Below are positions 7,638-63,924 of a DNA stretch of 64,000 nt, in pieces. Position 1 is the stretch's first letter; each line of letters starts with the position of its first letter. The DNA is taken from the NCBI GenBank assembly GCA_020249265.1, contig JADCGA010000011.1:62001-126000 (forward strand), given 5' to 3'. The position numbers were made by a program, and so were the translations under genes. This stretch comes from Roseomonas sp. GTDB lineage: Bacteria; Pseudomonadota; Alphaproteobacteria; Acetobacterales; Acetobacteraceae. The notes under the pieces were generated by a model. The model saw nothing but the letters and a program-made list of their open reading frames with translations, was not told the origin of the DNA and searched no databases.

Positions 7638-8132
7638 TTGGTTTACGCCATTGCCGCACCGGCGGTGCAACAGCTTGGCGTGCCGCCTTTGGCGGCGCAT
7701 TTTTTCATCCTCTACTACGGTATTCTCGCGGATCTGACGCCACCTGTTTGTGTCGCGGCCTATGCGGCGGCGGGGATTGCGGGGTCGAAACCTTTCCGCA
7801 CCGGGATTACGGCCTTTCGCCTTGGTTTGGCGAAGGCCACGGTGCCCTTTGTTTTTGCCTATTCGCCCGCCATGCTGATCATGGTGGATGGCTTCACTTG
7901 GGGTGATTTCCTTTTCACCACCATCAGCTGTGCCATTGGGGTATTGGTGTTGGGGATTGGCATGACCGGCTATGCCTTCACCCATATGGGGCTTGCCAGC
8001 CAAACCATATTGGTGATTTCAGCACTTTTGATGATTTCACCCAATGTGCCGATGACATTGGCGGGCGTGGTGCTGGCGCTGCCGGTCTTGGCGCTGAATT
8101 GGCGCGCTTCCAAGCGCGCTGCGCCAAGCTGA
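7638..8132 (+). pseudogene. C-terminal remnant of a TRAP transporter large permease (DctM-type, fused 4TM/12TM)
   Basis: The reading frame encodes only the last ~165 residues of a TRAP permease. Recognisable family segments are QLGVPPLAAHFFILYYGILADLTPP, quoted here as QLGVPPLAAHFF and ILADLTPP, followed by VCVAAYAAAGIAGS and FVFAYSPAMLIM. Full-length fused permeases have over 600 residues, so about three quarters is missing. The remnant starts at TTG 7638 without a ribosome site. No TRAP substrate receptor (DctP or TAXI) lies nearby. It is read as a truncated pseudogene whose 5' part was deleted at the MFS gene junction. It abuts the convergent hydrolase gene by 4 bases. Confidence 0.8.
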
Positions 8133-8136
8133 TTCC

Positions 8137-14985: not shown

Positions 14986-15963
14986 ATGACGGGCATTCAT
15001 CGCCGCGGCGCTTTGCTGGCCGCGCCAGCGCTTATCGGCGTATTGTCGGGCCGTGCGCATGCGCAAGCCTGGCCTGCACGCCAGGTGCGCATTGTGGTGG
15101 GCTTCGCTGCAGGTGGCGCCAATGACATCATGGCAAGGCTGCTTGCTGCGAAGCTTGGTGAGCGTATTCCAGGCAGCACTTTCGTCGTTGAAAACCGCCC
15201 CGGCGCGGGCACTTTGCTGGCGGCAGAACATGTCGCGCGTCAGCCGGCGGATGGCTATACTTATCTTTTCGCGTCTTCTTCCACGCTGATTACGCTTTTG
15301 GTGAACCGCGCTGCGGGGCTTGATCCGACGCAGGCATTTTCCGCGGTTTCCATGGCGCAATCCTCGCCTTTGCTGCTCGTCTCACGCAGCGATTTCCCAG
15401 CGCGTACCCTGCCGCAGGTGATTGAACTGGCGAAGCAGCGCCAAGGCAGGCTGACCATATCGCACCCGGGCAGTGGCGGCGTGAATCACTTGTCTCTGGT
15501 GATGCTGATGCAGCAAGTGGGCATAGAACTGACCATGGTGCCCTATAATGGCAACCACCCTTCCCTCACGGCGCTGGTGCGCGGCGATGTGGAATTGGCG
15601 AGTGATTCGCTATTCGCGACGCGCGCGTTGATTGAAGCCGGCACCATTCGCCCGATTGCGATCACCAGCGCGGAACGTTCACCGACCTACCCGGATGTGC
15701 CGACCTTTGCCGAAACCGTGCCGGGTTATGACGTGACCTTCTGGGGCGGCATCATGGCGCCGCGCGGCGTGCCTGAACCCATTCTGGACCGGCTTTCGCA
15801 AGAACTGGACGCCATTCTGCGCCAACCCGATGTCGCGGAACGTGTGCGGAGCTTTGGCGCCACGCCGGTTGGCGGGACGCGCGAACATTATGCCAAAGTG
15901 ATCCAGGAAGATTGGGTACGCTGGGGCGAAGTTGTGCGCGCCAGCGGCATCAAGCCAGATTGA
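14986..15963 (+). CDS. Bug-family tripartite tricarboxylate transporter substrate receptor
   Basis: This is an exported solute receptor (325 residues) of the TctC/Bug family, which binds carboxylates in the periplasm. The signal peptide carries the twin-arginine-like HRRGALLAAPALIG and ends at AHAQ. The family block WPARQVRIVVGFAAGGANDIMAR (quoted as VRIVVGFAAGG) and the FVVENRPGAGTLLAAE segment are present. GGAGGAGAC precedes the ATG. No TctA or TctB membrane genes accompany it. It lies 13 bases before a malate/lactate dehydrogenase-family gene, suggesting the ligand is the same hydroxy- or oxo-acid. Confidence 0.93.
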   Translation: MTGIHRRGALLAAPALIGVLSGRAHAQAWPARQVRIVVGFAAGGANDIMARLLAAKLGERIPGSTFVVENRPGAGTLLAAEHVARQPADGYTYLFASSSTLITLLVNRAAGLDPTQAFSAVSMAQSSPLLLVSRSDFPARTLPQVIELAKQRQGRLTISHPGSGGVNHLSLVMLMQQVGIELTMVPYNGNHPSLTALVRGDVELASDSLFATRALIEAGTIRPIAITSAERSPTYPDVPTFAETVPGYDVTFWGGIMAPRGVPEPILDRLSQELDAILRQPDVAERVRSFGATPVGGTREHYAKVIQEDWVRWGEVVRASGIKPD

Positions 15964-15976
15964 AAAGGGGGATACC

Positions 15977-17026
15977 ATGCCGAAACTCAGTGCCGATCGC
16001 GTCAAGGAAATTGGCCGCACACTTCTGATTGCTGCGGGCGCGCCAGCGGATGAGGCGGAAACCGTCGCGCGGCATTGCACCAGTGCCAATCTCGTGGGCC
16101 ATGATTCGCATGGAATCATTATGATTCCCGGCTATATCGAAAGGATCAAGGTTGGGCATATCGTCCCCGGTGCGCCATGGAAGATTGTGCAGGAATCAGC
16201 GACAACATCGGTGATTGATGGCCATTGGGGCTTTGGTTACGTCGCCAATGAAAAGGCCATGCGCTACACCATCGAAAAAGCACAAACATCCAATGTCGCG
16301 GCTGCCACCGTGTTTCGCCAGGGGCATATTGGCAGGCTAGCAAGCTATCCGCTGATGGCCGCTGAAGCCGGCATGATTGGTATTTGCACGGCGGATTCCG
16401 GGCGGTCCCCCAAGGCGGTGGCGCCTTTCGGTGGGCGAGAAGCGCGGCTTGGCACCAACCCGATTTCCATTGCAGTGCCTTCGGATTTGGCCGGGCCTTT
16501 TGTGCTGGATATGGCAACCTCGGCCGCCGCAGCCGGCAAGGTGTTTCTGGCGCAAGCGCGCGGGCAGGAAGTGCCGGATGGTTGGGTGATTGGCGCGGAT
16601 GGCAAGCCCACGCGCGATCCTTCGCAATTGAAGAAAGGCGGCGCTTTGCTGCCGCTCGGTGGTACCGAAGGCTATAAGGGCTTTGGCCTGGCGGCGATGG
16701 TAGAAATTCTTTGCGGCCTGCTGACGGGGCTTGGCTTTGGCGTGGAGCCCACGGGTCGGCATAATGACGGCTGCTTCATGGCGGTGTTCAAGGTGGATGC
16801 CTTCCGCCCACTCGCGCAGTTCAAACAAGAAGTCGCGGATTTCGCGCGCTATCTGAAGGATACGCCGCCCGCCGAAGGCAGCCAGGGCGTTTTCTACCCC
16901 GGTGAGCTTGAAGCAATGCGTGAGGCTGATCGCCGCGCCAATGGCATCGAGATTGAAGATAAGACGATTGAGGTATTGACCAAGCTTGCCGGCGAATTGG
17001 GTGTGGCCGGCAGGCTAGATCTTTAG
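15977..17026 (+). CDS. Ldh family oxidoreductase (malate/L-lactate dehydrogenase type)
   Basis: This NAD(P)-dependent dehydrogenase of about 349 residues belongs to the YlbC/ComC/Ldh_2 family, which is unrelated to classical lactate dehydrogenase. The catalytic region HDSHGI occurs near residue 45, GTNPISIAVP lies in the middle, and EGYKGFGLAAMVEIL in the C-terminal half. Substrates in the family include malate, sulfolactate, ureidoglycolate and cyclic imino acids. AAGGGGG lies before ATG 15977. Its position directly behind a Bug receptor and opposite a hydratase/hydroxyacid dehydrogenase pair suggests carboxylate catabolism. Confidence 0.9.
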   Translation: MPKLSADRVKEIGRTLLIAAGAPADEAETVARHCTSANLVGHDSHGIIMIPGYIERIKVGHIVPGAPWKIVQESATTSVIDGHWGFGYVANEKAMRYTIEKAQTSNVAAATVFRQGHIGRLASYPLMAAEAGMIGICTADSGRSPKAVAPFGGREARLGTNPISIAVPSDLAGPFVLDMATSAAAAGKVFLAQARGQEVPDGWVIGADGKPTRDPSQLKKGGALLPLGGTEGYKGFGLAAMVEILCGLLTGLGFGVEPTGRHNDGCFMAVFKVDAFRPLAQFKQEVADFARYLKDTPPAEGSQGVFYPGELEAMREADRRANGIEIEDKTIEVLTKLAGELGVAGRLDL

Positions 17027-21281: not shown

Positions 21282-21893
21282 TCAGGCCGATACCTGCCGC
21301 ACCAGATCCCGCTTGGCGAGCGCTGCCCCCGCCGCCCAGGCCGGCACCAGCGGGCGTGATTTTTCAAACCAAAGGCAGGTTTCCTCGATACCGCGTGCGG
21401 GGCACCAGATGCGCCCTTCCCCAAGCGGCCCGAATCCCAGCAGGCGAACAACCGCGAGCGAGGCTACATTATCCGGCTGCACCGCCGCCCGCAGGCAATC
21501 AATATCCATATGCTTGAAGGCGAGTTCGACCGCGACCGGCCCCGCTTCACGCATCAGCCCCTGGCCCTGGTGTTTTTCGCCAAGCCAATAAGTGGTCAGC
21601 GCTACCCGTTCATCACCCGGCGGGCAGACCAGACTGACCCAGCCGCAAATCGCACCATCAGATTTCCGTTCCAGTGCCAGCGGCAGGGACCGCCTTTGGG
21701 CCGCGGCGCCGCGGGCCGCCACGATTTTCTCTTCCGCCATTGGCGAAGAGAATGGCACAGGCCAGGAGGCCAATCGCTTGCTGATCGCTTCCGTCATCAT
21801 CTCCGCAATGGCCGGGGCATCGCGACCTTCGACGCAGCGCAACCGAAGGCGAGGCGTTTCTGCTACGAGAGCAGATGGGAGAAAAACAACCAT
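21282..21893 (-). CDS. GNAT family N-acetyltransferase (RimJ/RimL-like)
   Basis: This acetyl-CoA-dependent N-acetyltransferase has 203 residues. It begins with ETPRLRLRCVEGRD, the standard RimJ-type opening, and has the core YWLGEKHQGQGLMREA, whose QGQG/A-like loop binds the acetyl-CoA pyrophosphate. NVASLAVVRLLGF is the expected NxxS helix. Targets could be protein N-termini, antibiotics or small amines. It lies 24 bases after the aldehyde dehydrogenase on the same strand, across a short AT-rich gap, so it may be read through from the carotenoid operon without being part of that pathway. Confidence 0.85.
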   Translation of the reverse strand: MVVFLPSALVAETPRLRLRCVEGRDAPAIAEMMTEAISKRLASWPVPFSSPMAEEKIVAARGAAAQRRSLPLALERKSDGAICGWVSLVCPPGDERVALTTYWLGEKHQGQGLMREAGPVAVELAFKHMDIDCLRAAVQPDNVASLAVVRLLGFGPLGEGRIWCPARGIEETCLWFEKSRPLVPAWAAGAALAKRDLVRQVSA

Positions 21894-21917: not shown

Positions 21918-23258
21918 CTATTTGGCTAGAAAATTTTTTAACCTTTCCGCAGCTTTTCCGCGAGGTTGATCAAATATCCTCGACAGGGAAAACTTCCCAT
22001 GATGCACGCGGGCGCGGCGGTGGGAGAATTCCAGAAAGCCGGCCAGCCCATTGCGTCGCCCGAAGCCAGAATCACCAGATCCACCAAAACCCAAAGCCTG
22101 GAAGCCCGCGAATTCCACGGTGCGCCCAGCGATGATGGCGCTGCCCTTGGCGATCCGTGCAACCTGATTTTCTTCCTCAGACGTCGCACCAAAAAGGTAG
22201 ATGGCCAGGGGTGATGGACGGTCTACAACCCAGGCGAGTGCCATCCGAAGCGAATCTTCTTCACGCATAAGTAGTATCGGGCCGAAGATTTCCTTATGGC
22301 AGATTGCCGCTTCGGGCGGGGCTTCCGCCAGCATCAGCGCCATGTGTCGCCCCGGACCGTTCTCAGCCAGCAGGGTCAGGTTGGCGCCGGCCATCAGGCG
22401 TTGAAGCCGGGCAAGCTGGGCGGCATTGATCACGGCGGTCTCAGGCAGGCCGATGCCGCTTTCGCGGCAGGCTTCGATGAAGGCCTGCTTGCTATGCCCG
22501 ACCAGCAGCACGGTATCCGGCGCCACGCAGGTCTGCCCGGCATTGAACGCCTTGCCCGCAAGAATATCCCGCGCAGCGCGCTTCAAATCCGCCCCCGGCA
22601 GCACCAGCACTGGGCATTTCCCGCCCAATTCCAGCGTCAGTGGCGTCAGATTCGGCGCCGCAGCGGCCATGATCTTGCGCCCCGTCGCGGTACTGCCGGT
22701 AAAGACCAGATGATCCCAGGGTTGCGCCGCGAAATCCGCACCCACTTCAGCGCCACCTTGCACGCAAAGCGCGATGTTATCGCCCCAGGCATCGCGCAAA
22801 ATATCGGCAATCAGCGCGGCGGTGCGCGGCAGCGCTTCCGATGGTTTCACACAAACCCGGTTACCGGCAGCAATGGCATCAATCGCGGGCAGCAGCGCCA
22901 ATTGCACCGGGTAATTCCAGGGCGCCATGATGCCAATCACGCCCTTGGGGACGAATTCTTCCCGCGCGCGCGCCGGCCAGAAGGGATAGGGCACAGTGAC
23001 GCGTCGCGCGCGCATCCAATGCCACAGATTGCGCCGCGCATAACGCGCTGCATCCGCGACCAGCAACACATCCGCAAGCAGCGTTTCTATCGGCGCGCGG
23101 CCTTCATATTCGGCATCCAGCACCGCCATAATCTCATGCGACCGCGCCATCACGGCGCGTGCGAGGCCCGCCAGCAGCGCGCGGCGTCGCTTCAAGTTGG
23201 GGATACCATCACGTGCTTCGGCGGCGCGCAGCGCAGCAAGGGCTTCGGCAGGGGTCAT
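21918..23258 (-). CDS. aldehyde dehydrogenase, probable C30 carotenoid aldehyde oxidase
   Basis: This NAD(P)-dependent aldehyde dehydrogenase of 446 residues is like the coniferyl-aldehyde/fatty-aldehyde group. Visible are the cofactor-region PWNYPVQLALLPA, CVKPSEA, the glutamate in LELGGKCP and the catalytic cysteine in GQTCVAPD. In C30 carotenoid clusters such an enzyme turns the 4,4'-diapo aldehyde ends into carboxylates. Here the gene overlaps hpnE by 4 bases and closes the seven-gene operon, which is the basis for that assignment. A long C-terminal tail with a hydrophobic patch may help membrane contact. The general family is certain; the carotenoid role is inferred. Confidence 0.88.
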   Translation of the reverse strand: MTPAEALAALRAAEARDGIPNLKRRRALLAGLARAVMARSHEIMAVLDAEYEGRAPIETLLADVLLVADAARYARRNLWHWMRARRVTVPYPFWPARAREEFVPKGVIGIMAPWNYPVQLALLPAIDAIAAGNRVCVKPSEALPRTAALIADILRDAWGDNIALCVQGGAEVGADFAAQPWDHLVFTGSTATGRKIMAAAAPNLTPLTLELGGKCPVLVLPGADLKRAARDILAGKAFNAGQTCVAPDTVLLVGHSKQAFIEACRESGIGLPETAVINAAQLARLQRLMAGANLTLLAENGPGRHMALMLAEAPPEAAICHKEIFGPILLMREEDSLRMALAWVVDRPSPLAIYLFGATSEEENQVARIAKGSAIIAGRTVEFAGFQALGFGGSGDSGFGRRNGLAGFLEFSHRRARVHHGKFSLSRIFDQPRGKAAERLKNFLAK

Positions 23259-24481
23259 CGCAGTAAATCCTTTACCGCAGCCTCACCAGAAAGCACGGCG
23301 GCTTCAATGGTGGCGGGCAGGCGCGGCCAGGTCCAATCCCCGGCCAGCACAAGATTCCGATAAATCTGCCGCGGCGGTTGCGGCGGCATGCCCACCGCAT
23401 GGCGCGGCGTAGCGCGGCGTTCCTTCACCGCGCGCATGGCGGGCGGCGCTTCTGGCCATTCTCCCGGTAGGCTGAAAGCCTTGGCAGCAGCACGAATTTC
23501 CGCCCAAGCACGCGGCGCAAGATCAGGCGCCTGTTCTTCGACTTCCGCATCTGCCGCGCTGACCGTGACACTCACCCCACCTGGCCGCACCAGCACCCAT
23601 TGCGTGAGGCCGCCCAACACCCCGATGAAGCGCACCGGCCCCGCCGTTTCATGCGCGAAATGCAGATTGAGGATAGGCGCATGGCGTTCCGGCACGCGGA
23701 GTTTTGGGATCAGCCGCGCCACTTCCCAAGGCGGCAGCGCCAGCACAATGGCATCACGCGCTTCAAGCGCAAGGCTGTCATCACCAAAATGCAGCGCGAT
23801 GATGCGCCCTTCCGCTTCTGTCATGGCGCGGAGCCTGGCTCCGAAACGAATAGTCGCGCCCGCCTGTTCCAAAGCGCGCAAGGCGGGCGCAATCAAATCC
23901 GGCCCCAGTCCCTCCCGCGCCACAAGCAGCGCACCTGCGCCAGGCCGCCCAAGCCGCCGCAGCACCACGCCAAGCCGCGCGGAAGAAGCCTCCTGCCCCG
24001 GTGTATTCAGCGCTGCCACGGTGAGCGGTTCGATCAGCGCACGATACAGCACGGGATGCGCCGCCATGGCTTCCGCGACAGGCCGATCCCCAATCGGCAG
24101 AGCAAGGCGCAGCAGCGCGGCGATGGCGCCCGCACTCAAGCCCGGCGGGCGTTTGTCAGGGTCGCGCCAGGCGAGCGGGCTGGCGGCGATGCGCCTCGCG
24201 CTGCCATCAGCCAAATCGAAAACCGGCAGGCCTTCCGGTTCGGCTTCCACCCAGCCCTCACGCGCGCCGATATCTGCCAGAAAGCGCAAGGCGGCACGAT
24301 TGGCGCCCATCAGCGCATGGGTGCCGTTATCCGTGCCATCCGGTAGCGCGCGGCAGCGCCCGCCGGCCACAGGCGTTGCTTCATGCAGCGTCACCCGGCG
24401 CCCGGATTGTGCCAGACGCAGCGCAGCCACGAGCCCCGCAACCCCGGCGCCAATCACATGCCAGGTAGCGTTCTGGTTCAC
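23255..24481 (-). CDS. hpnE: hydroxysqualene dehydroxylase HpnE
   Basis: This FAD-dependent enzyme of 408 residues reduces hydroxysqualene to squalene, the last HpnCDE step. The dinucleotide motif HVIGAGVAGLVAALRLAQSGR (quoted as VIGAGVAGLVAAL) opens the protein, GGRCRALPDG and the NGTHALMGAN segment follow, and the C-terminal FAD segment NLVLAGDWTWPRLPATIEAA is quoted as LAGDWTWPRLPATIE. The start is GTG, overlapping the hpnCD stop by 4 bases (GTGA). It sits directly after the fused synthase gene, as expected for the pathway. Confidence 0.92.
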   Translation of the reverse strand: MNQNATWHVIGAGVAGLVAALRLAQSGRRVTLHEATPVAGGRCRALPDGTDNGTHALMGANRAALRFLADIGAREGWVEAEPEGLPVFDLADGSARRIAASPLAWRDPDKRPPGLSAGAIAALLRLALPIGDRPVAEAMAAHPVLYRALIEPLTVAALNTPGQEASSARLGVVLRRLGRPGAGALLVAREGLGPDLIAPALRALEQAGATIRFGARLRAMTEAEGRIIALHFGDDSLALEARDAIVLALPPWEVARLIPKLRVPERHAPILNLHFAHETAGPVRFIGVLGGLTQWVLVRPGGVSVTVSAADAEVEEQAPDLAPRAWAEIRAAAKAFSLPGEWPEAPPAMRAVKERRATPRHAVGMPPQPPRQIYRNLVLAGDWTWPRLPATIEAAVLSGEAAVKDLLR

Positions 24482-26139
24482 GCGCGGCTGGGGCTTGCTT
24501 GCGGCATGGGCATGATCCCCATGGCATAGGCCGCCATGCGGAGCTTTTCGCCGCGCGTCAGGCGCGGGCGTGGCCGAGGTAGGCCGAAGCCGCGCGCCAT
24601 CAGGCGTTCAAACAGGCGCTGATAGCCCCACATCATGATACGCGCCGGCAAAAGGGCGCGTTGATCCAGATGCCGCAGTTCCGCCGCCGCTTGTGCAAAG
24701 CCTGCCTCTGCCTGCTGCGCCAAATGCGCCGCGGCGCGGGCAAAGCCTGGGCTAGAAATCAGCGTTGTGGCCGGTGCGTCAGCCACACCTTCAGCGGCCA
24801 GCAGATCAAGCGGCAGATAGACGCGGTCGCGCAGTGCATCCTCATCCAGATCGCGCAGAATATTCACCAATTGCAGCGTGCGCCCCAAGCCAAGACCGAA
24901 ATCAGCCGCTTCCGGCGCGCCAAAAATCCGCACCGCCATGGCGCCGACGCTACCTGCGACCCGGCGGCAATAAAGGTTCAGCGCTTCGGTATCGGGAATG
25001 CGCAAGCTTGGCGTGGAATCGGTTTCCATCCCCGCGATCATCGCTTCGCATTCTTCGATTGGGAGGGCGAAGTTCGCGCGCGCCAGCGCCAATTCGCGTG
25101 ACAGAGCACAATTGGGCACGCGCAGCTTGCCACGCCAATCAGCCAGGAAGCGGCGCTTTTCGGCTTCCGGCATTGCGCCATCGGCAATGTCATCCACCGC
25201 GCGGCAGAAGGCGTATACGGCCCAAAGCGCGCGACGCCTTTCGCCCTTCAGCGCCGACATGCCGCGCGCGAAGGAAGACCCCGCGCGCCCAACCCGCGCA
25301 CTGACCAAAGCCGCATCGCTTGGCCCGGTGCCGAGTGCCGCGCGAAAGCCATGCAGGAAATCGAGGCGCGATAGGGCAACCCGCCCCAACACAGGATCCG
25401 CCGCGCGCAGCCGCGCCAGCAGTCGGCGCGCGAGTGCAATCGTCACCGCGCTTTCGCGCGCAAGGCGCTTGGCCGAGAGCAACCGCGGCAGTGCAGCGGA
25501 GGCATCCAGCCTTTCTTCCACCTGATCAAGCGCGGCATCCAGCACTGCGCGCCGCGCCTCGGTATTGGCCGGGTCGAAGAAACCTGCCTCACCACCCGCC
25601 AATGCCATCCAGGATTCCGGCAAATAAACGCGGCCGATATCACGCCGATCCGGCACCAGATCCTGCATATGATTGAGAATTTGCAGCGCGGTGCAGAGAC
25701 CATCCGCCGCCGCCAGGGCTTCGGGCTTTGTTTCATCATGCAGGCGCAGCAACATGCGCCCAACAGGATTGGCTGACCGAGCGCAGTAATCTTCCAAAGC
25801 AGCCCAATCCGCATACCGCGCCTGCGTTGCATCCTGCCGAAAGGCGGAGAGCATTAGCCGCGCTTCTGCCGTGCCACTGCCCGCACGATGCAATGCCGTG
25901 GCGGCAGGTTCATCGGTGGCGGGATCATCAAGGGCCGCTTCAAGCACAGCCAAGCGGCGCAGTTTCTCTTCGCTGCTCAGCACCGGATCATCGGCGATAT
26001 CATCCGCAGTGCGCACAAAGCGATAAAACCCCAGCACCTTCGGGCGAATCTCCGGCGCCAGCAGCCGGGACGCGACAGGAAAATTCTCAGACCCTGCGTC
26101 TCGCGTTGGCGCGCGGGAGGCGGCGCCCTGATCCGTCAT
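24478..26139 (-). CDS. hpnCD: fused HpnC-HpnD: hydroxysqualene synthase plus presqualene diphosphate synthase
   Basis: One 553-residue protein holds two trans-isoprenyl diphosphate synthase domains. Residues ~1-270 match HpnC, which turns presqualene diphosphate into hydroxysqualene (SENFPVAS; ADDIADD at 45-51; QDLVPDRRD at 159-167). Residues ~285-553 match HpnD, which condenses two farnesyl diphosphates (SSFARGMSALKG; VDDIAD at 315-320; ILRDLDEDA at 427-435). All four aspartate-rich motifs are intact, so both sites should be active. These are normally separate ~280-residue proteins. ATG 26139 overlaps the glycosyltransferase stop by 4 bases; the frame's upstream extension lies inside that gene. 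HpnE follows directly. Confidence 0.9.
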   Translation of the reverse strand: MTDQGAASRAPTRDAGSENFPVASRLLAPEIRPKVLGFYRFVRTADDIADDPVLSSEEKLRRLAVLEAALDDPATDEPAATALHRAGSGTAEARLMLSAFRQDATQARYADWAALEDYCARSANPVGRMLLRLHDETKPEALAAADGLCTALQILNHMQDLVPDRRDIGRVYLPESWMALAGGEAGFFDPANTEARRAVLDAALDQVEERLDASAALPRLLSAKRLARESAVTIALARRLLARLRAADPVLGRVALSRLDFLHGFRAALGTGPSDAALVSARVGRAGSSFARGMSALKGERRRALWAVYAFCRAVDDIADGAMPEAEKRRFLADWRGKLRVPNCALSRELALARANFALPIEECEAMIAGMETDSTPSLRIPDTEALNLYCRRVAGSVGAMAVRIFGAPEAADFGLGLGRTLQLVNILRDLDEDALRDRVYLPLDLLAAEGVADAPATTLISSPGFARAAAHLAQQAEAGFAQAAAELRHLDQRALLPARIMMWGYQRLFERLMARGFGLPRPRPRLTRGEKLRMAAYAMGIMPMPQASPSRA

Positions 26140-27239
26140 GCCGCGCCGCTGGCGGAATAGGCGCGACCCTTCCAACCGGCAGGGCGGCCGATCAGCACGC
26201 GCACCAAAGCGGTCCATTGAATGGCGAGACCCACTAGCACGGCCAAGGGATGCAGCGGCACTGTCCACCAGGCTTCACGCGTACTGAAGGTAATGACGGC
26301 GCGCAACCCGAACACAAGCAGGATGGCAAGCGCCGCCTGCCATTCCGGCAGCAGAAAGAAGGGCCAGATATGCGCACCGGCCAGAAGCGTGGTCCAAATG
26401 GGCAGGCCAACTGGCGTCGCCATGCCTTCATGCGCATTCTTGATGAAGCCGTTCCAACTGGTGCGAAAGCCATTATACATGCGGCATTCCGCGAGCGTCA
26501 CACCTTCCACCATTTCGGTGCGAAAACCAGCGCCGCGTAGCTTGCGCGCCAGCTGCAAGCCATCATGAAGCGAGCCGCGAATTGCTCCATGCCCGCCAAG
26601 GGCTTCGTAGGCAGCACGCTCGAAAAGGATCAACTGCCCGCAAGCGGCGCCAAGCTCCGCGCGTTCAGTCTCGGCCCGCCCGCCGCCGGGCAGATAGCCG
26701 ATCAACAGCAGATTAATCATGGGCACTGTCAGCGCCTCACCCAGTGAGCCAATGATCTGGCGCGGTACGCCTGTCACCATGGCCAGCTTCTGCCGCGCAG
26801 CATGGCCGCACATCGCCGAAGCGGCATCACGCGCCAGCCGTACATCGGCATCAATGAACAGGAAATGCGTCCCCCGCGCCGCTTCCGCCAACCGCGCACA
26901 GGCATGCACCTTGCCGGTCCAGCCTTGCGGTAGCGGCGGGCAGGCCAGCAAACGCACCCGCGCATCCCGCGCGGCATAGGCATTCACAATCGCTGCCGTG
27001 CGATCGGTGGAACCATCATCCATCACCAGCACTTCAATCGCGACACCTTGTTGGGCCAGCGCAGCATCAAGGCAGGCGGCGATATGCGCTTCCTCATTCC
27101 GCGCTGGAATCAGAATGGAAACCAGCGCATCCTTGGGCGCGGGCCCGCGCGCCTTGGCCATGCGGCGGAGATTATCAATTGCGAAACCCACAGGAAACAG
27201 CGCCAAAGCAAGCGCAATCCAGGGCAGGAATTCTGTCAT
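26136..27239 (-). CDS. membrane glycosyltransferase family 2, CrtQ/HpnB-like
   Basis: This is a 367-residue GT-A glycosyltransferase with one N-terminal helix and two or three C-terminal helices. VSILIPARNEE, VMDDGSTDRT, the LPQGWTGKVHAC segment, the metal motif FIDADVRL and a late GSLHDGLQLARKLRGAG are present. The GWTGK-type motif is shared by CrtQ, which glucosylates diaponeurosporenoate, and by the hopene-associated HpnB group. Lying inside a C30 carotenoid operon with 4-base overlaps on both sides, it most likely attaches a sugar to the carotenoid carboxylate. Which sugar cannot be told from sequence. Confidence 0.85.
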   Translation of the reverse strand: MTEFLPWIALALALFPVGFAIDNLRRMAKARGPAPKDALVSILIPARNEEAHIAACLDAALAQQGVAIEVLVMDDGSTDRTAAIVNAYAARDARVRLLACPPLPQGWTGKVHACARLAEAARGTHFLFIDADVRLARDAASAMCGHAARQKLAMVTGVPRQIIGSLGEALTVPMINLLLIGYLPGGGRAETERAELGAACGQLILFERAAYEALGGHGAIRGSLHDGLQLARKLRGAGFRTEMVEGVTLAECRMYNGFRTSWNGFIKNAHEGMATPVGLPIWTTLLAGAHIWPFFLLPEWQAALAILLVFGLRAVITFSTREAWWTVPLHPLAVLVGLAIQWTALVRVLIGRPAGWKGRAYSASGAA

Positions 27240-28054
27240 GGCGCAGTCTCCGCGCGTTGTTCATGTCGGGGGTCGAATCGTTCGCCGCGCAGCAGCGCCT
27301 TGGCGCGGCGCCAGGCTTGATAAATGCCGCCCATGCCTTCGCGCCCCTGCACCAGGGTTTGAAACGCCGCCGGATCACGCGCAATGGCATCGGCGCTGAG
27401 CTTATCCATGACGCTTGCCAGGGCACCTGAAAGCAAGGCGCTGCGCGCATCTCGCGGCGCTTCCAGCAGTGTCGCAGCGGGAATAGGCGCGCCGAAAGCA
27501 GCCAGCATTTCCGCCTTGCGCTCACTCCAGAACGGGTAATCCAGCGCGAGTGGCACAAACACCGCATCGGGCGCGATTTCCGGCAGGCGGATCACGCCGG
27601 GCGCAATCGGCACGGGCCTTTCGCGCGCGTCGCTGAATCGCCCCGGCGCATTGATCCAGAGGATATGCGAAGGATTTGCCAAAACCTTTTCCACCACGCG
27701 CAAAAACGCCACAGAACCGCGTGCCGATCCGGTTTCAATGCCAAACACGCCAAGTCGCTTCATGAAGCGATATTTTTCGAGTGCCGCCGCATCCATCGGC
27801 GTGAATAACGGCCGATACGGCAAAAGCCGGCGATAGAGCAGCATGAAGGCCACGCCATCCCACCAGGAAGGGTGATTGGCGAAAATCACCACGGGCTTGC
27901 CTGCCGGCAATTCAGGCAGGCCCCAGCGCGCCACGCGCAGTGCGCGCATATGCTTGGCGAAGAAACGCGTGAACATGAAATCGAAAAAATCCAGATGGCG
28001 CGCGGAACGCAGCGCCACCGGGTCAGGCACTTGTTTTGCCTGGCCTGTCGTCAT
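27236..28054 (-). CDS. lysophospholipid-acyltransferase-like protein, probable carotenoid glycoside acyltransferase
   Basis: This is a 272-residue acyltransferase of the PlsC superfamily. The catalytic motif is FANHPSWWDGVAF (the H-x4-D of block I), followed by LFTPMDAAAL, the block II-like FGIETGSARGS and the changed block III INAPGRFSDAR, where the usual EGTR is replaced. Related proteins in C30 carotenoid clusters esterify the sugar of the carotenoid glycoside with a fatty acid. The gene overlaps both neighbours by 4 bases. An ordinary phospholipid role is possible, but the altered block III and the operon position argue for a specialised acceptor. Confidence 0.82.
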   Translation of the reverse strand: MTTGQAKQVPDPVALRSARHLDFFDFMFTRFFAKHMRALRVARWGLPELPAGKPVVIFANHPSWWDGVAFMLLYRRLLPYRPLFTPMDAAALEKYRFMKRLGVFGIETGSARGSVAFLRVVEKVLANPSHILWINAPGRFSDARERPVPIAPGVIRLPEIAPDAVFVPLALDYPFWSERKAEMLAAFGAPIPAATLLEAPRDARSALLSGALASVMDKLSADAIARDPAAFQTLVQGREGMGGIYQAWRRAKALLRGERFDPRHEQRAETAP

Positions 28055-29634
28055 TCCGCCGCGGCTGGCAAATCGGCCTCTCGCCGGCCGGCCAATTCAG
28101 CTTCGGGCGACATGCCGCGCCCGCCAAGATCACGGTCCAAAGCATCGGCCGCGATCCAGCCGGACATCATCACCATGGGCATGCCAGGGCCGGGATGCGC
28201 CGCACCGCCGGCCAGATAAAGCCCCTTGATCGCCTTGCTGCGATTGCTCGGCTTGAAGGCGCCGGTGAAGGAACCATGCGATGCCAGGCCATAAATCGCG
28301 CCATTCAGCACCTTGTAGCGGTTATGGATATCAACCGGCGTCAATTGGCTTTCGCAGACAATGCGGCTTTCGATGTCTTCCATCCCTGCAGTGCGCTTCA
28401 GCTTATCCAGGATTTTCTGGCGATAGGCCGGGAACATTTTCGACCAATCATGATGTGGGCGCAGATAGGGCGTGTGTACCAGGACATAAAGCGCTTCCCC
28501 ACCTTCCGGCGCGACCGAAGGATCAGTGCACGATGGCGCGGCGAGATACGCAGTCGGGTCCGGCGCCGGTTCGCCCTTGCGATAGATGGCATCGAATTCT
28601 TCTTCCGCATCGCGGGAGAAGACGAAATCATGATGCGCCAAATGTTCGTAACGGCGGTTCAGGCCTAAATAGAGCACCACACCGGAACAGGCGGGTTCAT
28701 ATTTCTTGGCATAGCGCTGAGACGCATTGCCCTTCACCAATTCCGTATAGGTGCGGATCGCATCCATGTTCGAAATCAGCGCATCGCAGGCAATGCGTTC
28801 GCCATTGGTCGTGACACTGCGCACCGCACCATTCACGATTTCAATATCCGTCACTTCGGCATTGGTACGCAAATCAGCGCCCAGCGACGCGGCAAGATTG
28901 GCAAGCCCTTCCGCCGTGGCGCGCGTGCCGCCCACGGGATACCACACCCCTTCGGATGCCTGCATATCGCCAATGCTGCACAGCACCGCCGGCGCCAGAT
29001 AGGGGCTTGATCCGACATATTGAGTGAAGTGATCCAGCATTTGCGCCAATTGCTCATTCGGCACATGGCCGCGAATAACCTTCGCCACCGTCTGGCCCAT
29101 GCGCAGCGCCATGACATCACGCAGCACATCGGGCTTGAAGTTGTCGCCAAGATTCAGCGTATCGCCGATGCCTTCCACGGGCTTCCAGAAGAAGAATTTC
29201 TCGGAAACCTTGTGCAAATGGCGGGCCACGCGCTGGAATCGTTCATACCCCGCGCCATTCGGCCCGCCGGGAGCGAATTCATCCATCAGCCGTGCCATAT
29301 CCTGCACGTTTTCGATCAGATCAATCTGCTTGCTGCCATCAAAAAAGCAGCGCCATTGCGGATCAAGCCGGATCAGCGGCATTTCCTTTTGCTGATCGCG
29401 CCCCGCTTCGGCGAAGATGCGGCGCAGCACGCGCGGCACGGTCAGGATGGTGGGGCCCATATCGAAGCGGAAATTCCCGCGCCCATCCGGCGATGGCATG
29501 CTCAGCACCGCCGCCTTGCCGCCCAGCCAGGAATTACGCTCAAGGACCGTGACCTGATGCCCACGCGCCTGCGCGGTGGCGGCGGCTGCAAGCCCACCCA
29601 AACCGCTGCCAATGACAACTACCTTGGCACCCAT
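28051..29634 (-). CDS. CrtP/CrtNb-like carotenoid oxidase (phytoene desaturase family)
   Basis: This FAD-dependent enzyme of 527 residues belongs to the CrtI/CrtN/CrtP family. The opening GSGLGGLAAAATAQARGH, then LGGKAAVLSMPS and DMGPTILTVPRV, are nearer to the CrtP oxidases (GGK and GPSILT types) than to CrtN, so it is tentatively assigned to oxidation of terminal methyl groups to aldehydes. The C-terminal FAD segment reads GLYLAGGAAHPGPGMPMV. GGAGAGGG precedes the ATG. It is the second gene of the operon, 15 bases after the other family member. The desaturase and oxidase roles of the two could be swapped. Confidence 0.85.
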   Translation of the reverse strand: MGAKVVVIGSGLGGLAAAATAQARGHQVTVLERNSWLGGKAAVLSMPSPDGRGNFRFDMGPTILTVPRVLRRIFAEAGRDQQKEMPLIRLDPQWRCFFDGSKQIDLIENVQDMARLMDEFAPGGPNGAGYERFQRVARHLHKVSEKFFFWKPVEGIGDTLNLGDNFKPDVLRDVMALRMGQTVAKVIRGHVPNEQLAQMLDHFTQYVGSSPYLAPAVLCSIGDMQASEGVWYPVGGTRATAEGLANLAASLGADLRTNAEVTDIEIVNGAVRSVTTNGERIACDALISNMDAIRTYTELVKGNASQRYAKKYEPACSGVVLYLGLNRRYEHLAHHDFVFSRDAEEEFDAIYRKGEPAPDPTAYLAAPSCTDPSVAPEGGEALYVLVHTPYLRPHHDWSKMFPAYRQKILDKLKRTAGMEDIESRIVCESQLTPVDIHNRYKVLNGAIYGLASHGSFTGAFKPSNRSKAIKGLYLAGGAAHPGPGMPMVMMSGWIAADALDRDLGGRGMSPEAELAGRREADLPAAAE

Positions 29635-29649
29635 CGCGCCCTCTCCTTC

Positions 29650-31275
29650 TCAGTCGCCAGCAGACTGTTTGGTCGCATTTTCCGAGCCGCCAAGTGAGTC
29701 CACTTGGCTTGAAAATGCTCCCACATTGGCCCGCATATGGCTTGGGCTGCGTTCGCTGCGCGCCATGCCCAAATCCTGCAACAATAAATCCGCGCTGATC
29801 CGCGCACCTTCATAAATCACCGGCAGCCCACTGCCCGGATGCGTGCCGCCGCCCACCAGATACACGCCCCGCGCCTTACCGAAGCGATTGCGCGGGCGGA
29901 AATGCATCATCTGCCGCACATTATGCGCCAGGTTGAAAGTCGCCCCATAGCCAACCGCATAATCATCCTGCCAACCTTGTGGCGAGAGGATTTTCTCGTA
30001 CCGAATGCGGCTTTCGATATCATGCAGGCCCAGCGCCTTCAGCCTATCCAAAGCAAGTCGCCGATAGCGCGGCGCTTCTGCCGCCCAATCCGCCCCACCC
30101 AAAAGATTCGGCACGGGCACCAGCATATAAAGCGTGGAATGCCCAGGCGGTGCGAGTGAAGGATCCGTGCTGGCGGCGGCCTGCACATAAAGCGAAGGAT
30201 TTTGCGGAATAATCCCTGCTTCGATCTGCGCCAGGTTATTCTCATAATCTTCCGCGAGCAGCACGGTGTGATGCGCCAGATCAAGCGGCCCTTCAATGCC
30301 AAGATAAAGCATGAAGGTGGAACAGGAATACCGCGCCTCGGCGATTTTCTTATCGGGCCATTGCGGGCGCTGTTCTTCTTCCATCAGCCCCGGAATGGCA
30401 TGCGCGAAATCGGCATTCACCACCACCGCATCCGCGGCATGCAACCGTCCGCCCGCTTCAACACCCACCGCGCGCCGGCCTTCAAAGACAATGCGATCAA
30501 CCTTGGTGTTCAGGCGGATATCCACGCCGACACTCTCGGCCACCCGGGCCATGGCTTCCGATATCACGCCGCACCCGCCGCGCGGGTGAAACACGCCATG
30601 TTCATATTCCAGGAAGGACAGGATGGAGAACATGCTCGGGCAACGAAACGGACTCATGCCCAGGTATTTGGACTGGAAGGAAAATGCCAAGCGCGTGCGC
30701 GGATCAGAGAAGTGTCTTTGCAATTCCTGATCCAGCGAAAGCCAGGGCCGCAGATGCTTGAGCCCATTCATCACTTCCGGCGCCAGATAAGTCATCACGC
30801 CATGAAAGGGCCGTTCCAACACGGGGCGGAAGGCTTCCAGCTTCACGCGGTTTTCCGCCATGAAGCTGCGTACCCCCGCGGCATCGGCTGGGTTGATCTT
30901 CGCCACTTCCGCTTCCATGCGCGCCAGATCGGGCGTCGCTTCAATGGAAACAGGATTGGCGCCTTCAAAAATCAGCCGATACTGCGGATCAAGGCGGATC
31001 AAATCCACCTCATCCTCAAGCCGTGCGCCGCAGGCTTCGAAGATTTCCGCCAGGATGCGCGGATACAGGAAGAAGGTCGGCCCAATATCAAAGCGGTAGC
31101 CGCCAGGCGCCGTTACGGTGCGGGTGCGCCCGCCTACCACGGCATCCTTTTCGAATACCGTGACGCGCACGCCTGAGGAGGCCAGCAGCATGGCCGCGGC
31201 CAAGCCTCCGGGGCCGGCGCCGATTACGGCGACATGGGGGCGAGTTTGTGAGAGCGAGGGAGGTGATGCGTTCAT
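29650..31275 (-). CDS. crtN: CrtN-like squalene/diapophytoene desaturase (phytoene desaturase family)
   Basis: This FAD-dependent desaturase of 541 residues heads the carotenoid operon. VIGAGPGGLAAAMLLASSG, VVGGRTRT and FDIGPTFFLYP form the N-terminal FAD region, and VYLVGGGTHPGSGLPVI the C-terminal one. In C30 pathways that start from squalene, CrtN introduces the conjugated double bonds. No CrtM or CrtB gene is nearby, so the substrate is expected to be squalene from HpnCDE. The final ~35 residues (after SADLLLQDLG) are a serine-rich tail. The region upstream to 31360 should hold the operon promoter, but no convincing -35/-10 pair was found. Confidence 0.86.
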   Translation of the reverse strand: MNASPPSLSQTRPHVAVIGAGPGGLAAAMLLASSGVRVTVFEKDAVVGGRTRTVTAPGGYRFDIGPTFFLYPRILAEIFEACGARLEDEVDLIRLDPQYRLIFEGANPVSIEATPDLARMEAEVAKINPADAAGVRSFMAENRVKLEAFRPVLERPFHGVMTYLAPEVMNGLKHLRPWLSLDQELQRHFSDPRTRLAFSFQSKYLGMSPFRCPSMFSILSFLEYEHGVFHPRGGCGVISEAMARVAESVGVDIRLNTKVDRIVFEGRRAVGVEAGGRLHAADAVVVNADFAHAIPGLMEEEQRPQWPDKKIAEARYSCSTFMLYLGIEGPLDLAHHTVLLAEDYENNLAQIEAGIIPQNPSLYVQAAASTDPSLAPPGHSTLYMLVPVPNLLGGADWAAEAPRYRRLALDRLKALGLHDIESRIRYEKILSPQGWQDDYAVGYGATFNLAHNVRQMMHFRPRNRFGKARGVYLVGGGTHPGSGLPVIYEGARISADLLLQDLGMARSERSPSHMRANVGAFSSQVDSLGGSENATKQSAGD

Positions 31276-31360: not shown

Positions 31361-32977
31361 TCAGGCTGCCATGGCCCCCTCGATTTCCGCGAAGCGCGCC
31401 CCAGCACGCGGGAGGAGCCGCCGCAGATAGAAATCCGCCACCGCCCCATAAGCCGCGCCATCCGCCGCGGCCGCCCGCGCGAGAAGAGCACCCCCCAGCA
31501 CCCAGCCCACAGCATCCAAATAGGCAGTCGCGAGCGATTGGCTAGCCTCTGCATCGCGGCCTTGCACTTCCAGCATGGCTTCCGTGGTCCGGGCCAGCCC
31601 CTCAGCCGCGGCGCGCAGCCTGGCATCGGGCAGGGCGGCGATCTCGCTGATGAGGCTCCGCATCTCCGCCCCGCCATCGCGGGCGAGCTTGCGGGTCAGC
31701 AGGTCAATGGCCTGGATGCCGTTGGTGCCCTCATAAATCGGGGCAATGCGGGCATCGCGCAGCACCTGGGCGGCGCCGGTATCCTCAATAAAGCCCATCC
31801 CGCCATGCACCTGCACGCCGAGGGAGGCGGTTTCCACCCCGCGATCCGTGGCCCAAGCCTTCAGCACCGGGATCAGCAGCGCCAGCCGCGCGCTGGCCGC
31901 TTTATCGCCCAAAAGCTCCGCCCTGTCGGCCGCCACTGCCGCTTCCAGCATGATCAGCCGCGCGGCGAGCGTGCAGGCGCGCATTTCCATCAGCATACGC
32001 GCCACATCCGGGTGTTCCGCAATGCTGCGCCCGCTCTGCACGCGCTGCGCGGCATAGGCTTCCGCGAGCCGTAGTGCCGCCGCGCCATGGGCTACACCTT
32101 GGGTGCCAACGCCAAGCCTGGCATTATTCATCATGGCGAACATGGCTTGCAGGCCGCGATGCGGTTCGCCGACCATCTCGGCCTCCGCCCCTTCATACAG
32201 CATGATGCAGGTAGGGCTGCCATGGATGCCCATTTTGCGTTCGATGCCACCGCAGCGGAAGGCATTGCGCGCGCCTTCGGGCAGGATTTTCGGCGCGGCG
32301 AATAGCGAAATCCCGCGCGAGCCCGGCGGCGCATCCGGCAGGCGCGCCAGCACCAGATGCAGGATATTGCCGGCGCAATCATGCTCACCCCAGGTGATGA
32401 AAATCTTCTGCCCGTGCAAGGCATAACGCCCATTGCCGAGAGGCTCGGCGCGCGTGCGCAGCATGCCCAGATCACTGCCGGCTTGCGGTTCGGTCAGGCA
32501 CATCGCGCCGGTCCATTCGCCCGCAATCATCGGCGGCAGCCAGCGCGCCGCCTGATCCGGCGTGGCGTGATGCCGCAGCAGATCAATCGCCCCCGCCGTC
32601 AGCAGCGGGCCGAGCATGAAGGATGTATCCGCCGCCATGCCCAATTCCGTCATGGCGGTCCAAAGGCTGATCGGCAGACCCTGCCCGCCATGTTCCACCG
32701 GTGCTGCAAGCCCCTGCCAGCCGCCTTCGCGCCATTGATCATAAAGCGCTGGGTAATGCGCCGGCGTGGTCACCGTGCCATTGGCATAGCGCGCGCCTTG
32801 CTTATCGGCTTCCTGCGCCTTGGGTTGCAGCGCTTCGGTGCAGAAGCGGTTCGCCTCGGTCACGATTTGGGCGATGTCATCGGCGGAAAGCGGCGCGCCG
32901 GCGGCATTGGTCAGGCCCGGCAGGTCAACCAGGCGGGTCAGGCCGAAAATCAGGTCATCAGCGGCGGTGGTGGTCAT
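31361..32977 (-). CDS. acyl-CoA dehydrogenase
   Basis: This FAD-dependent acyl-CoA dehydrogenase has 538 residues, with an extended C-terminal domain as in the DmdC/AidB-neighbour type. CLTEPQAGSDLG, KIFITWGEHD, VHGGMGFIEDTGAAQV and the catalytic glutamate in IYEGTNGIQAIDL are all visible. It oxidises acyl-CoA thioesters to enoyl-CoA; relatives act on fatty acyl-CoA or 3-methylmercaptopropionyl-CoA. The gene starts 4 bases inside the end of the upstream flavoprotein gene. It ends 85 bases before the carotenoid operon start, on the same strand. Confidence 0.92.
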   Translation of the reverse strand: MTTTAADDLIFGLTRLVDLPGLTNAAGAPLSADDIAQIVTEANRFCTEALQPKAQEADKQGARYANGTVTTPAHYPALYDQWREGGWQGLAAPVEHGGQGLPISLWTAMTELGMAADTSFMLGPLLTAGAIDLLRHHATPDQAARWLPPMIAGEWTGAMCLTEPQAGSDLGMLRTRAEPLGNGRYALHGQKIFITWGEHDCAGNILHLVLARLPDAPPGSRGISLFAAPKILPEGARNAFRCGGIERKMGIHGSPTCIMLYEGAEAEMVGEPHRGLQAMFAMMNNARLGVGTQGVAHGAAALRLAEAYAAQRVQSGRSIAEHPDVARMLMEMRACTLAARLIMLEAAVAADRAELLGDKAASARLALLIPVLKAWATDRGVETASLGVQVHGGMGFIEDTGAAQVLRDARIAPIYEGTNGIQAIDLLTRKLARDGGAEMRSLISEIAALPDARLRAAAEGLARTTEAMLEVQGRDAEASQSLATAYLDAVGWVLGGALLARAAAADGAAYGAVADFYLRRLLPRAGARFAEIEGAMAA

Positions 32978-34134
32978 GTTGTGCTCTCCAATCCGGCCAG
33001 CAGGCCAGGTGCCGGGGCATCACGCCCGGCGGCCCAGCCCGGTAGTGCGCGGGCGAGCGCAGTATCCTCCGCCGCCGCGGCCAGGGCCAGACCTAAAAGC
33101 GGGGCGAATTTGAAGCCATGGCCGGAAAAGCCGGACATGACAAAGCAGGCGGGGGCGGCGGCTTCCAGGATGAATTCCTCCCGGTCTTCCACATCGTAAT
33201 AGCAGGCCTGGGCGCCCAGCACGCGATAACCAGCCGCATCGATCAGGCGCGGGCGGGCGAGGGCCAGGATTTCCTCGATTTCAGCGGGCGTTGCTTCGCG
33301 CGGGTCGGCCCCGGCATCGCCCTGGCGCGAAAAGCGGTGATCCCCGATCTTGAGTGCGGTGCCCGCCACCGGCGGTACGGCGTAAAACCCCCCATCCTCG
33401 GCCAGATCAAGCAGCATGGGCGCGGCTGCCCAGGCGGCGCGAAATTCGGGCGGGGCTTCAAGACGCACCAGGATTTGCCGGGACGGCACCACGCGGCCAG
33501 TAAGCCGGGTGCCGAGCAGCCTTGGCCCCCAGGGTCCGGCGGCGAGTACCAGCAGATCAGCGCTGCGCGCCACACCGTTGGTGAGCCTCAGCGCCGCACG
33601 ATCCGGCAGCGCAGCGGTGACCTCGGCGGCCTCGAACACCACGCCCTGGGTGGCAAGATGCGCGGCGAGCCCGGCGACGATGCGTTCAGCGAGCAGCGCG
33701 CCACCGCGCGGCAAGGTGAAGGCGGCGGCAATGCCGGTATCTGACAGCATGGGAAAGCGCTTGGTGATCTGATCCGGCGCCAAATCCACGCAAGAAAGCC
33801 CATCGGCCCGCAGCGCAGCACGGCTTCCCGCAAGCCAGCCACCCTGGTGATTGGCCAGCGCGAGCACGCCGGTTTCAACATAATGCCGGGCGCCGAGTGC
33901 GGCCCAGATCATCTCCCAAGCCGCATAGGCAGGGTCAACCATCCGCATATAGCCGGCCTGCGCGCCATAGGCGTGGCGGATCAGTCGGTGCTGATCCACG
34001 GATGCGCCGCGCGGATTGGGGATGGGTGCCTGTTCAATCACGCGCACCTGCCAGCCGGCACGGGTCAGCGCCCAAGCGGTACAAAGCCCCATGATGCCGG
34101 CGCCAAGGACAAGGGCGTTTCGTTGTGCTGCCAT
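32974..34134 (-). CDS. FAD-dependent amine oxidase, sarcosine-oxidase-like
   Basis: This flavoprotein of 386 residues belongs to the DAO family, near monomeric sarcosine oxidase and N-methyltryptophan oxidase. ALVLGAGIMGLCTAWALTRAG (quoted as VLGAGIMGLCTAWAL) binds ADP, and GASVDQHRLIRHAYG is the typical second block. ACYYD contains the cysteine that carries covalent FAD in MSOX. SGFSGHGFKFAPLLG is the usual C-terminal FAD contact. It oxidises a secondary amine or N-methyl amino acid to imine with peroxide release. It overlaps the acyl-CoA dehydrogenase gene by 4 bases. The substrate is not known. Confidence 0.9.
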   Translation of the reverse strand: MAAQRNALVLGAGIMGLCTAWALTRAGWQVRVIEQAPIPNPRGASVDQHRLIRHAYGAQAGYMRMVDPAYAAWEMIWAALGARHYVETGVLALANHQGGWLAGSRAALRADGLSCVDLAPDQITKRFPMLSDTGIAAAFTLPRGGALLAERIVAGLAAHLATQGVVFEAAEVTAALPDRAALRLTNGVARSADLLVLAAGPWGPRLLGTRLTGRVVPSRQILVRLEAPPEFRAAWAAAPMLLDLAEDGGFYAVPPVAGTALKIGDHRFSRQGDAGADPREATPAEIEEILALARPRLIDAAGYRVLGAQACYYDVEDREEFILEAAAPACFVMSGFSGHGFKFAPLLGLALAAAAEDTALARALPGWAAGRDAPAPGLLAGLESTT

Positions 34135-63838: not shown

Positions 63839-63924
63839 TGGTGCGGCCAAGAAGATTCGAACTTCCACGGGGTTTCCCCCACCAGCACCTCAAGCTGGCG
63901 CGTCTACCATTCCGCCATGGCCGC
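63839..63924 (-). tRNA. tRNA-Leu (anticodon GAG), CCA encoded
   Basis: Read on the minus strand, the gene starts GCGGCCA and ends TGGCCGC-A-CCA, giving a perfect 7-bp acceptor stem. The anticodon stem CCAGC/GCTGG encloses the loop TTGAGGT, so the anticodon is GAG (codons CTC and CTT). A long variable arm follows (GGTGGGGGAAACCCCGT region), as expected for leucine tRNA, and GTTCGAATC gives the T loop. The 86-base length includes the encoded CCA. It lies 41 bases upstream of maeB on the same strand. Confidence 0.95.

Follow-up and report, generated by a model that had tools for sequence, protein, structure and literature searches.

A seven-gene operon in Roseomonas sp. predicted to lead from farnesyl diphosphate through squalene to C30 carotenoids

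Within a stretch of 64,000 nucleotides from Roseomonas sp. (GenBank assembly GCA_020249265.1, contig JADCGA010000011.1, positions 62,001 to 126,000), the whole of which we call the window, seven genes lie on the minus strand at 21918-31275, in the order CrtN, CrtP, acyltransferase (AT), GT2 glycosyltransferase (GT), HpnC-HpnD fusion (HpnCD), HpnE and aldehyde dehydrogenase (ALDH). We judge, at a probability of roughly 0.86, that they form an operon dedicated to a route from farnesyl diphosphate to C30 carotenoids. Homology, synteny and the genetics of relatives together lead to the prediction that HpnCD and HpnE feed squalene to CrtN, CrtP, ALDH, GT and AT. This part of the pathway had already been proposed in a first-pass annotation of the window and stands; the comparison drawn there with Firmicutes passes over nearer precedents in Methylobacterium extorquens and Azospirillum brasilense.

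Gene arrangement at the locus

From upstream to downstream, the seven genes are as follows.

29650..31275, minus strand: CrtN-type desaturase, 541 amino acids (aa), the most upstream of the seven; crtI_fam
28051..29634, minus strand: CrtP-type oxygenase, 527 aa; crtI_fam, CrtP clade, beside AT and GT
27236..28054, minus strand: lysophospholipid-type acyltransferase, 272 aa; PF01553, HX4D motif NHPSWWD
26136..27239, minus strand: GT2 glycosyltransferase, 367 aa; PF00535, DAD motif
24478..26139, minus strand: fused HpnC-HpnD, 553 aa; HpnC and HpnD models both over cut-off in one open reading frame
23255..24481, minus strand: HpnE-type hydroxysqualene dehydroxylase, 408 aa; TIGR03467 is the best model, directly downstream of HpnCD
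21918..23258, minus strand: aldehyde dehydrogenase, 446 aa; PF00171, Cys244 and Glu210

Open reading frames and a reading of the junctions bear out the original description of seven minus-strand genes with five 4-base overlaps, these being ATGA at CrtP/AT, AT/GT, GT/HpnCD and HpnE/ALDH, and GTGA at HpnCD/HpnE. The junction between CrtN and CrtP is a 15-base gap with GGAGAGG inside it. The machine-called reading frame of HpnCD opens 43 codons earlier, at 26268, and the ATG at 26139 overlaps the GT stop. A scan for promoter-like and terminator-like sequences performed no better than shuffles (2 against a mean of 3.0 and 14 against 13.8, respectively), so that the limits of the operon are not fixed by that scan. 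The order CrtN-CrtP-AT-GT-HpnCD-HpnE is retained in Pararoseomonas, Roseicella, Roseomonas pecuniae and loci from metagenome-assembled genomes at protein identities of 55-78%, which argues that the arrangement in the window is not a product of chance.

Protein families and the fused HpnCD

Profiles and motifs agree with the families to which the seven genes had first been assigned, with the qualification that the best curated models for HpnE and GT score below their cut-offs. CrtN and CrtP reach 511.9 and 396.6 bits with crtI_fam, against a cut-off of 238.1. When CrtI-like proteins are arranged in a tree, CrtN of the window clusters with its counterparts from other CrtN-CrtP-AT-GT loci and is separate from the CrtP clade; both clades (support 99 for CrtN and 97 for CrtP, in a tree that holds no experimentally tested reference sequence) are distinct from the CrtI and CrtD of the same genome. 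AT is matched by PF01553 only (26.3 bits, cut-off 23), and its residues N60, H61, P62, W64 and W65 are invariant in all 11 aligned sequences including the window's, with D66 present in 10 and replaced by E in the remaining one. GT scores 80.2 bits with PF00535, its best curated models being CruG (124.7 bits, cut-off 600) and HpnB (107.8 bits, cut-off 379.25), both far below cut-off, and its D130-A131-D132 motif is invariant in nine of nine aligned sequences, again including the window's. ALDH scores 209.9 bits with PF00171 and has the catalytic Cys244 and Glu210; among the solved structures closest to it are those of steroid, fatty and class 3 aldehyde dehydrogenases, in keeping with an apolar substrate.

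The HpnCD frame exceeds the cut-offs of both HpnC (330.8 bits against 250.45) and HpnD (315.9 bits against 278.6). Its aspartate-rich motifs (D46, D47, D50; N156, D160, D164; D316, D317, D320; N426, D430, D434) are invariant in 19 of 19 fused proteins, the window's among them; the alignment comprises these 19, seven rows of a larger set having been left out because of their format. The AlphaFold model (predicted local distance difference test, pLDDT, 90.8; predicted template modelling score, pTM, 0.88) has Foldseek matches to CrtM-like enzymes, Alicyclobacillus HpnC (4hd1) and human squalene synthase, and in a sequence search 4hd1 aligned to residues 16-259 and a CrtM to 287-490. Fusions of HpnC and HpnD have been described from subdivision 2 Acidobacteria, some Actinobacteria and Rhodospirillum centenum (PMC5462960; published work is represented here and below by excerpts of the papers, to which our statements refer), and a claim of novelty for the fusion was therefore rejected. 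As in the window, these are single genes encoding HpnC followed by HpnD, but they were reported in a study of hopanoid genes (PMC5462960), unlike the pigment-operon setting proposed here.

A C40 set on another contig

The genome from which the window derives (3.96 Mb, 99.87% complete) carries a photosynthesis gene cluster on contig C1, where pufL, pufC and bchZ exceed their cut-offs. The same contig holds a C40-type set consisting of CrtD (645.9 bits, cut-off 580), a CrtI-family protein (612.4 bits, cut-off 238.1) and a CrtB-like protein (381.4 bits, below its cut-off of 500). As this set lies in the photosynthesis cluster, elsewhere in the genome, the C30 operon would be a second pigment route. 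A check for a CrtM-type dehydrosqualene synthase as C30 source brought up four PF00494 matches in the genome: the two domains of the fused HpnCD, the CrtB-like gene in the photosynthesis cluster and C15:6628, for which NCBIfam gave no match at 1e-30. About 0.9 kb from CrtD, on the margin of the cluster, there is also a cytochrome P450-like gene (L013:16022-17407).

Given a CrtI, CrtD and CrtB-like set in the pufL, pufC and bchZ cluster, both CrtI-like enzymes of the operon could be imagined to serve C40 carotenoids, with no C30 pigment being made. We consider this highly improbable and reject a C40-only reading: the CrtN and CrtP clades are separate from the genome's own CrtI and CrtD, squalene genes lie inside the operon, and a congener (G706) keeps the operon although a search with CrtP finds no CrtI/CrtD-like match there. 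The first-pass annotation had named a C40 crtB/crtI pair as the only pigment route among the findings that would count against its reading; such a set does exist, but it is not the sole route.

Squalene genes in a genus without squalene-hopene cyclase

No match to squalene-hopene cyclase (SHC) was obtained in the window's genome with either TIGR01507 or PF13249, and PF13249 found none in any of the 35 species of the genus surveyed, 28 of which are represented at ≥ 90% completeness and ≤ 5% contamination. Because of this absence across the genus, squalene seems to serve pigment there. HpnCD is present in 31 of the 35 species and CrtP likewise in 31 (in two halves in G680); 30 species have both and three have neither (G679, G292 and G687), a co-occurrence with a Fisher p of 0.0024 that takes no account of kinship. 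CrtP occurs without a found HpnCD in one species (G686), whose only relevant match is CrtB-like at 79 bits and whose contig stops right after GT (L166), so that this absence may be an assembly gap. CrtP is missing from four species, of which one (G683) retains HpnCD-HpnE and the other three have no HpnCD either; none of the four has a CrtI-like match of the usual strength.

The locus of G683 (L156:6699-13627) is informative as to which genes belong together. Here an FAD oxidoreductase (FADox), an acyl-CoA dehydrogenase (ACAD), HpnCD, HpnE and a GNAT acetyltransferase are all in place, and CrtN, CrtP, AT, GT and ALDH have gone from between them. The loss of ALDH together with the other four ties it to the tailoring genes, and in G262, where the CrtN-CrtP-AT-GT block lies elsewhere, ALDH moves along with it.

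Distribution in the family and class

Beyond the genus, we sampled 299 genomes of the GTDB family and 385 of the class. Fused HpnCD, counted in the family at ≥ 63% identity, occurs in 64 of the 299 family genomes (as partial matches in G115 and G120), and 61 of these 64 have a close CrtP (in two pieces in G088). The two genes lie on the same contig, 1.8-2.2 kb apart, in 55 of the 61, a spacing that leaves room for AT and GT, and on separate contigs in the other six; a close CrtP without fused HpnCD is seen in four family genomes. Among the named carriers are Roseicella frigidaeris, Roseomonas pecuniae and Pararoseomonas indoligenes. In Humitalea rosea no Crt genes adjoin HpnCD-HpnE, and in G005 the CrtN-CrtP-AT-GT block is on a contig other than that of HpnCD.

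Further alphaproteobacterial families and named genera also have this block. Among the class genomes, CrtP relatives at 65-69% identity turned up outside the family in one genome from each of five other families; CrtN, AT and GT adjoin CrtP in every case, with no HpnCDE within the stretch read. In family f15, a diverged CrtP-like gene (44-49% identity) stands directly upstream of fused HpnCD-HpnE, accompanied by a divergent ALDH (L136 in G312 and L138 in G444). Ten loci (L136, L137, L138, L140, L152, L153, L154, L190, L191 and L192) have a DUF2141 gene in the neighbourhood of the CrtN-CrtP-AT-GT block or of a CrtP-like-HpnCD pair; none was found in the window, nor in the Roseomonas-type locus stretches compared, many of which are short. 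It is possible that the DUF2141 protein is an accessory to C30 carotenoids.

The family sample also bears on whether HpnCD-HpnE might mainly supply squalene for hopanoids, its adjacency to carotenoid genes being incidental. Two observations favour this: an SHC match (PF13249, tallied by eye) accompanies fused HpnCD in 46 of the 64 genomes and is lacking in 18, and genus g48 keeps HpnCD and SHC without CrtP. Against it, neither model detects SHC in the window's genome and PF13249 detects none in its genus, yet PF13249 is over cut-off in 258 of the 299 family genomes. (The model gives no match in 40 of the 299.) Short of a cyclase that the models do not recognise, we therefore regard a mainly hopanoid role as very unlikely, and for the window's own genome a hopanoid-only reading, which the first-pass annotation had raised as a possible outcome, is contradicted by the missing SHC match and rejected. 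For the 46 SHC-positive genomes, a dependence of hopanoids on the pigment operon can be entertained as a hypothesis only, since weaker HpnC or HpnD copies may exist there beyond the matches listed.

The proposed pathway

We propose that C30 carotenoid synthesis by the operon might take place in the following manner. The HpnD half of the fusion would join two farnesyl diphosphates into presqualene diphosphate, which the HpnC half would convert to hydroxysqualene and HpnE would reduce to squalene. CrtN could then desaturate squalene and the ensuing intermediates towards 4,4'-diapolycopene, with CrtP oxidising the end methyl groups to aldehydes and ALDH taking these on to the carboxylic acid or acids. 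The GT2 enzyme would add a sugar to the acid as an ester and AT a fatty acyl chain to the sugar, giving a product of the acyl-glucosyl-diapolycopenedioic acid type. For each of these reactions, as for expression from a single transcript, we infer the outcome from relatives and from established knowledge of the families; the same basis suggests the identity of the sugar and acyl chain and whether one or both ends are modified.

A C30 carotenoid acid could be made but end as something other than a Methylobacterium-type acylated sugar ester, for instance as the free diacid or a diglucosyl ester, with AT acting elsewhere. We take Roseococcus thiosulfatophilus to belong to the same broad group as the window's organism. 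This aerobic phototroph is reported to contain a C30 carotenedioate along with the corresponding diglucosyl ester (PMC12654162), and M. extorquens PA1 is described with other C30 carotenoids even though its GT and AT genes are present (PMC10448405). The window's AT and GT are, moreover, 32-64% and 44-69% identical to their aligned relatives, among which the tested M. extorquens proteins do not figure. In complete tailoring loci that were read, however, AT and GT adjoin each other and CrtP, and in M. extorquens AM1 deletion of GT leaves the free diacid and deletion of AT stops at the glucoside (PMC10448405). A different end product is thus conceivable but on the unlikely side.

Several observations weigh against a dedicated operon with the order of steps proposed above. 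The best model for HpnE, TIGR03467, scores 241.7 bits, below its cut-off of 283.05. ALDH is absent after HpnE at the locus in Pararoseomonas indoligenes and Roseomonas pecuniae, so its linkage is not strict, and in G689, where the block is split, it stands beside HpnCDE and away from CrtN and CrtP. Two ALDH candidates were tested in M. extorquens and neither was needed; Methylobacterium CrtP mutants are colourless (PMC10448405), so that the order of desaturation and oxidation may differ from the one given. HpnCD occurs without CrtP in G683 and in three genomes of genus g48, with HpnE adjoining in G683, G047 and G127, from which it follows that HpnCDE is not tied solely to pigment; a strict linkage between HpnCDE and carotenoid genes was accordingly not upheld. 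In G683, which has no SHC match, HpnCD-HpnE have outlived the tailoring genes with no known use for squalene.

A divergent ALDH adjoins CrtN or a CrtP-like gene at L139, L141 and L154 (also at L136 and L138). These proteins form a second ALDH subfamily, 41-75% identical internally and 29-41% identical to the operon-type ALDH, and two different ALDHs thus seem to be linked to C30 loci.

Descent and transfer

Trees were made for HpnCD, HpnE, CrtP and CrtN only. In the HpnC+HpnD tree, the fused proteins of the Roseomonas group fall with Microvirga puerhi and family f15 (100/99), apart from other Acetobacteraceae (100/99), and the HpnE tree likewise pairs M. puerhi with the Roseomonas group and separates both from other Acetobacteraceae, with f15 positioned elsewhere. 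Two approximately unbiased (AU) tests, both chosen after the tree had been seen and with p values that are valid for groups named beforehand, rejected a single HpnC+HpnD clade for the rows of the GTDB family (group 1, the taxonomic family; p 6e-8) and a single origin of the HpnC-HpnD fusion (group 2, the gene form; p 1e-49). At least five label changes are forced on the tree, which would need several fusion or fission events. That the window's HpnCD is not of the lineage of other Acetobacteraceae suggests transfer.

A search of plasmid records identified, on a megaplasmid of Microvirga ossetica (NZ_CP016619.1), a run of genes for ALDH (divergent), CrtN, a methyltransferase, CrtP, AT, GT, HpnCD, HpnE and ispH, the operon proteins being 46-70% identical to those of the window. 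Its HpnCD and that of M. puerhi fall together as neighbours of the Roseomonas group (99), whereas its CrtN and CrtP take up such a position together with those of G578 (99 each). Parsimony suggests that the operon was passed on whole between the Microvirga and Roseomonas lineages, in whichever direction and however many times. Gluconobacter thailandicus has a separate version, CrtN-CrtP-AT-GT-DUF2141-ALDH (L192), on a plasmid of 173 kb that is typed as conjugative, which indicates that the tailoring block can travel.

We tentatively extend this to a fuller scenario, to which we give slightly less than even odds. The whole operon from farnesyl diphosphate to acylglycosyl C30 carotenoid, its fused squalene synthase included, may have been exchanged in one piece between Methylobacteriaceae (Microvirga) and the Roseomonas group, replacing the hopanoid HpnCDE ancestral to the family. 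Some descendants would make hopanoids from squalene of the pigment operon, and the window's genus would have dropped hopanoids, leaving squalene as a precursor of pigment only.

Neighbouring genes

Genes on either side of the operon share its strand.

31361..34134, minus strand: acyl-CoA dehydrogenase and FAD oxidoreductase, 85 bases upstream of CrtN
21282..21893, minus strand: GNAT acetyltransferase, 24 bases downstream of ALDH; PF13302, 71.9 bits

All three are conserved neighbours that probably lie outside the pathway. The GNAT gene stays in place even without carotenoid genes (L156, in G683). ACAD and/or FADox, which overlap each other by ATGA, stand upstream of the locus in other genera too, and also adjoin HpnCD-HpnE where CrtN and CrtP are gone or elsewhere (L156, L162). 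The window's sole tRNA, a tRNA-Leu (gag) at 63839-63924, is also its sole Rfam match at gathering score.

Comparison with known systems

The chemistry of the route is already known from M. extorquens and A. brasilense and is not new. In the literature searched, with most subscription journals outside it, no title among those listed deals with the operon in Acetobacteraceae or Roseomonas, which does not prove that no account exists. A survey of metabolites in Acetobacteraceae genomes mentions carotenoids twice, once set against aryl polyenes and once in a reference (PMC8776678). What we have not seen in print is, more modestly, the gathering of the route at one locus with a fused HpnCD, the occurrence of this unit in Microvirga as well, and a genus that has squalene synthesis beside pigment genes without SHC. 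The last of these, in which squalene synthesis is seemingly decoupled from hopanoids, bears on the use of hpnCDE as hopanoid markers. Genes of this kind could plausibly also account for the C30 carotenedioate and the glucosyl ester of Roseococcus.

Of the known systems, M. extorquens AM1 shares HpnC, HpnD, HpnE, CrtN, CrtP, GT and a lysophospholipid-type AT with the window, and its product is 4-[2-O-octadecenoyl-glucosyl]-diapolycopenedioic acid, an acyl-glucosyl-diapolycopenedioic acid (PMC10448405). Overexpression of hpnC and hpnD raised pigment in this strain (PMC10448405). The adjacency of CrtP, AT and GT and their relative order are common to both organisms and, judged from position and family, GT and AT of the window would be orthologous to META1p3663/3664. 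However, the M. extorquens genes are at scattered loci, with hpnCDE beside SHC, HpnC and HpnD separate and the ALDH unknown, whereas the window has one operon that includes ALDH, a fused HpnC-HpnD and a genome without an SHC match. The operon's ALDH is a candidate for the kind of enzyme still missing in M. extorquens.

In A. brasilense Sp7, deletion of hpnCDE abolished the carotenoid, as did deletion of crtNPOQ, upon which squalene accumulated, establishing squalene as an intermediate there; aldH lies in the crtNPOQ cluster (PMC13274349). The order CrtN-CrtP-AT-GT, read at the locus of another A. brasilense strain, and an adjoining ALDH are shared with the window, whose CrtP has 62% identity to one from A. 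brasilense. The arrangement differs in that hpnCDE is elsewhere, ALDH is divergent and GT is followed by the DUF2141 gene.

The staphyloxanthin pathway of Staphylococcus likewise applies CrtN, CrtP, ALDH, a glycosyltransferase and an acyltransferase to a C30 backbone, and draws on diapophytoene made by CrtM. In place of this start the window's operon carries HpnCDE, and its AT is of the PF01553 kind. The staphylococcal acyltransferase CrtO is reported to have no homologue in M. extorquens (PMC10448405). Methylomonas is described as combining squalene synthase with crtN and crtNb and with an enzyme that oxidises the aldehyde (PMC10745290).

The cluster on the M. ossetica plasmid is known from annotation. 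It departs from the window (L190) in having ALDH divergent and upstream, an S-adenosylmethionine (SAM) methyltransferase between CrtN and CrtP (7752-8834) and ispH last (15332-16300), and shares with it the order CrtN, CrtP, AT, GT, fused HpnCD (552 aa) and HpnE as well as 4-base overlaps. The operon may be viewed as a compact and portable set of genes for acylated glycosyl C30 carotenoids, compounds that in Methylobacterium are strong quenchers of singlet oxygen (PMC9598406).

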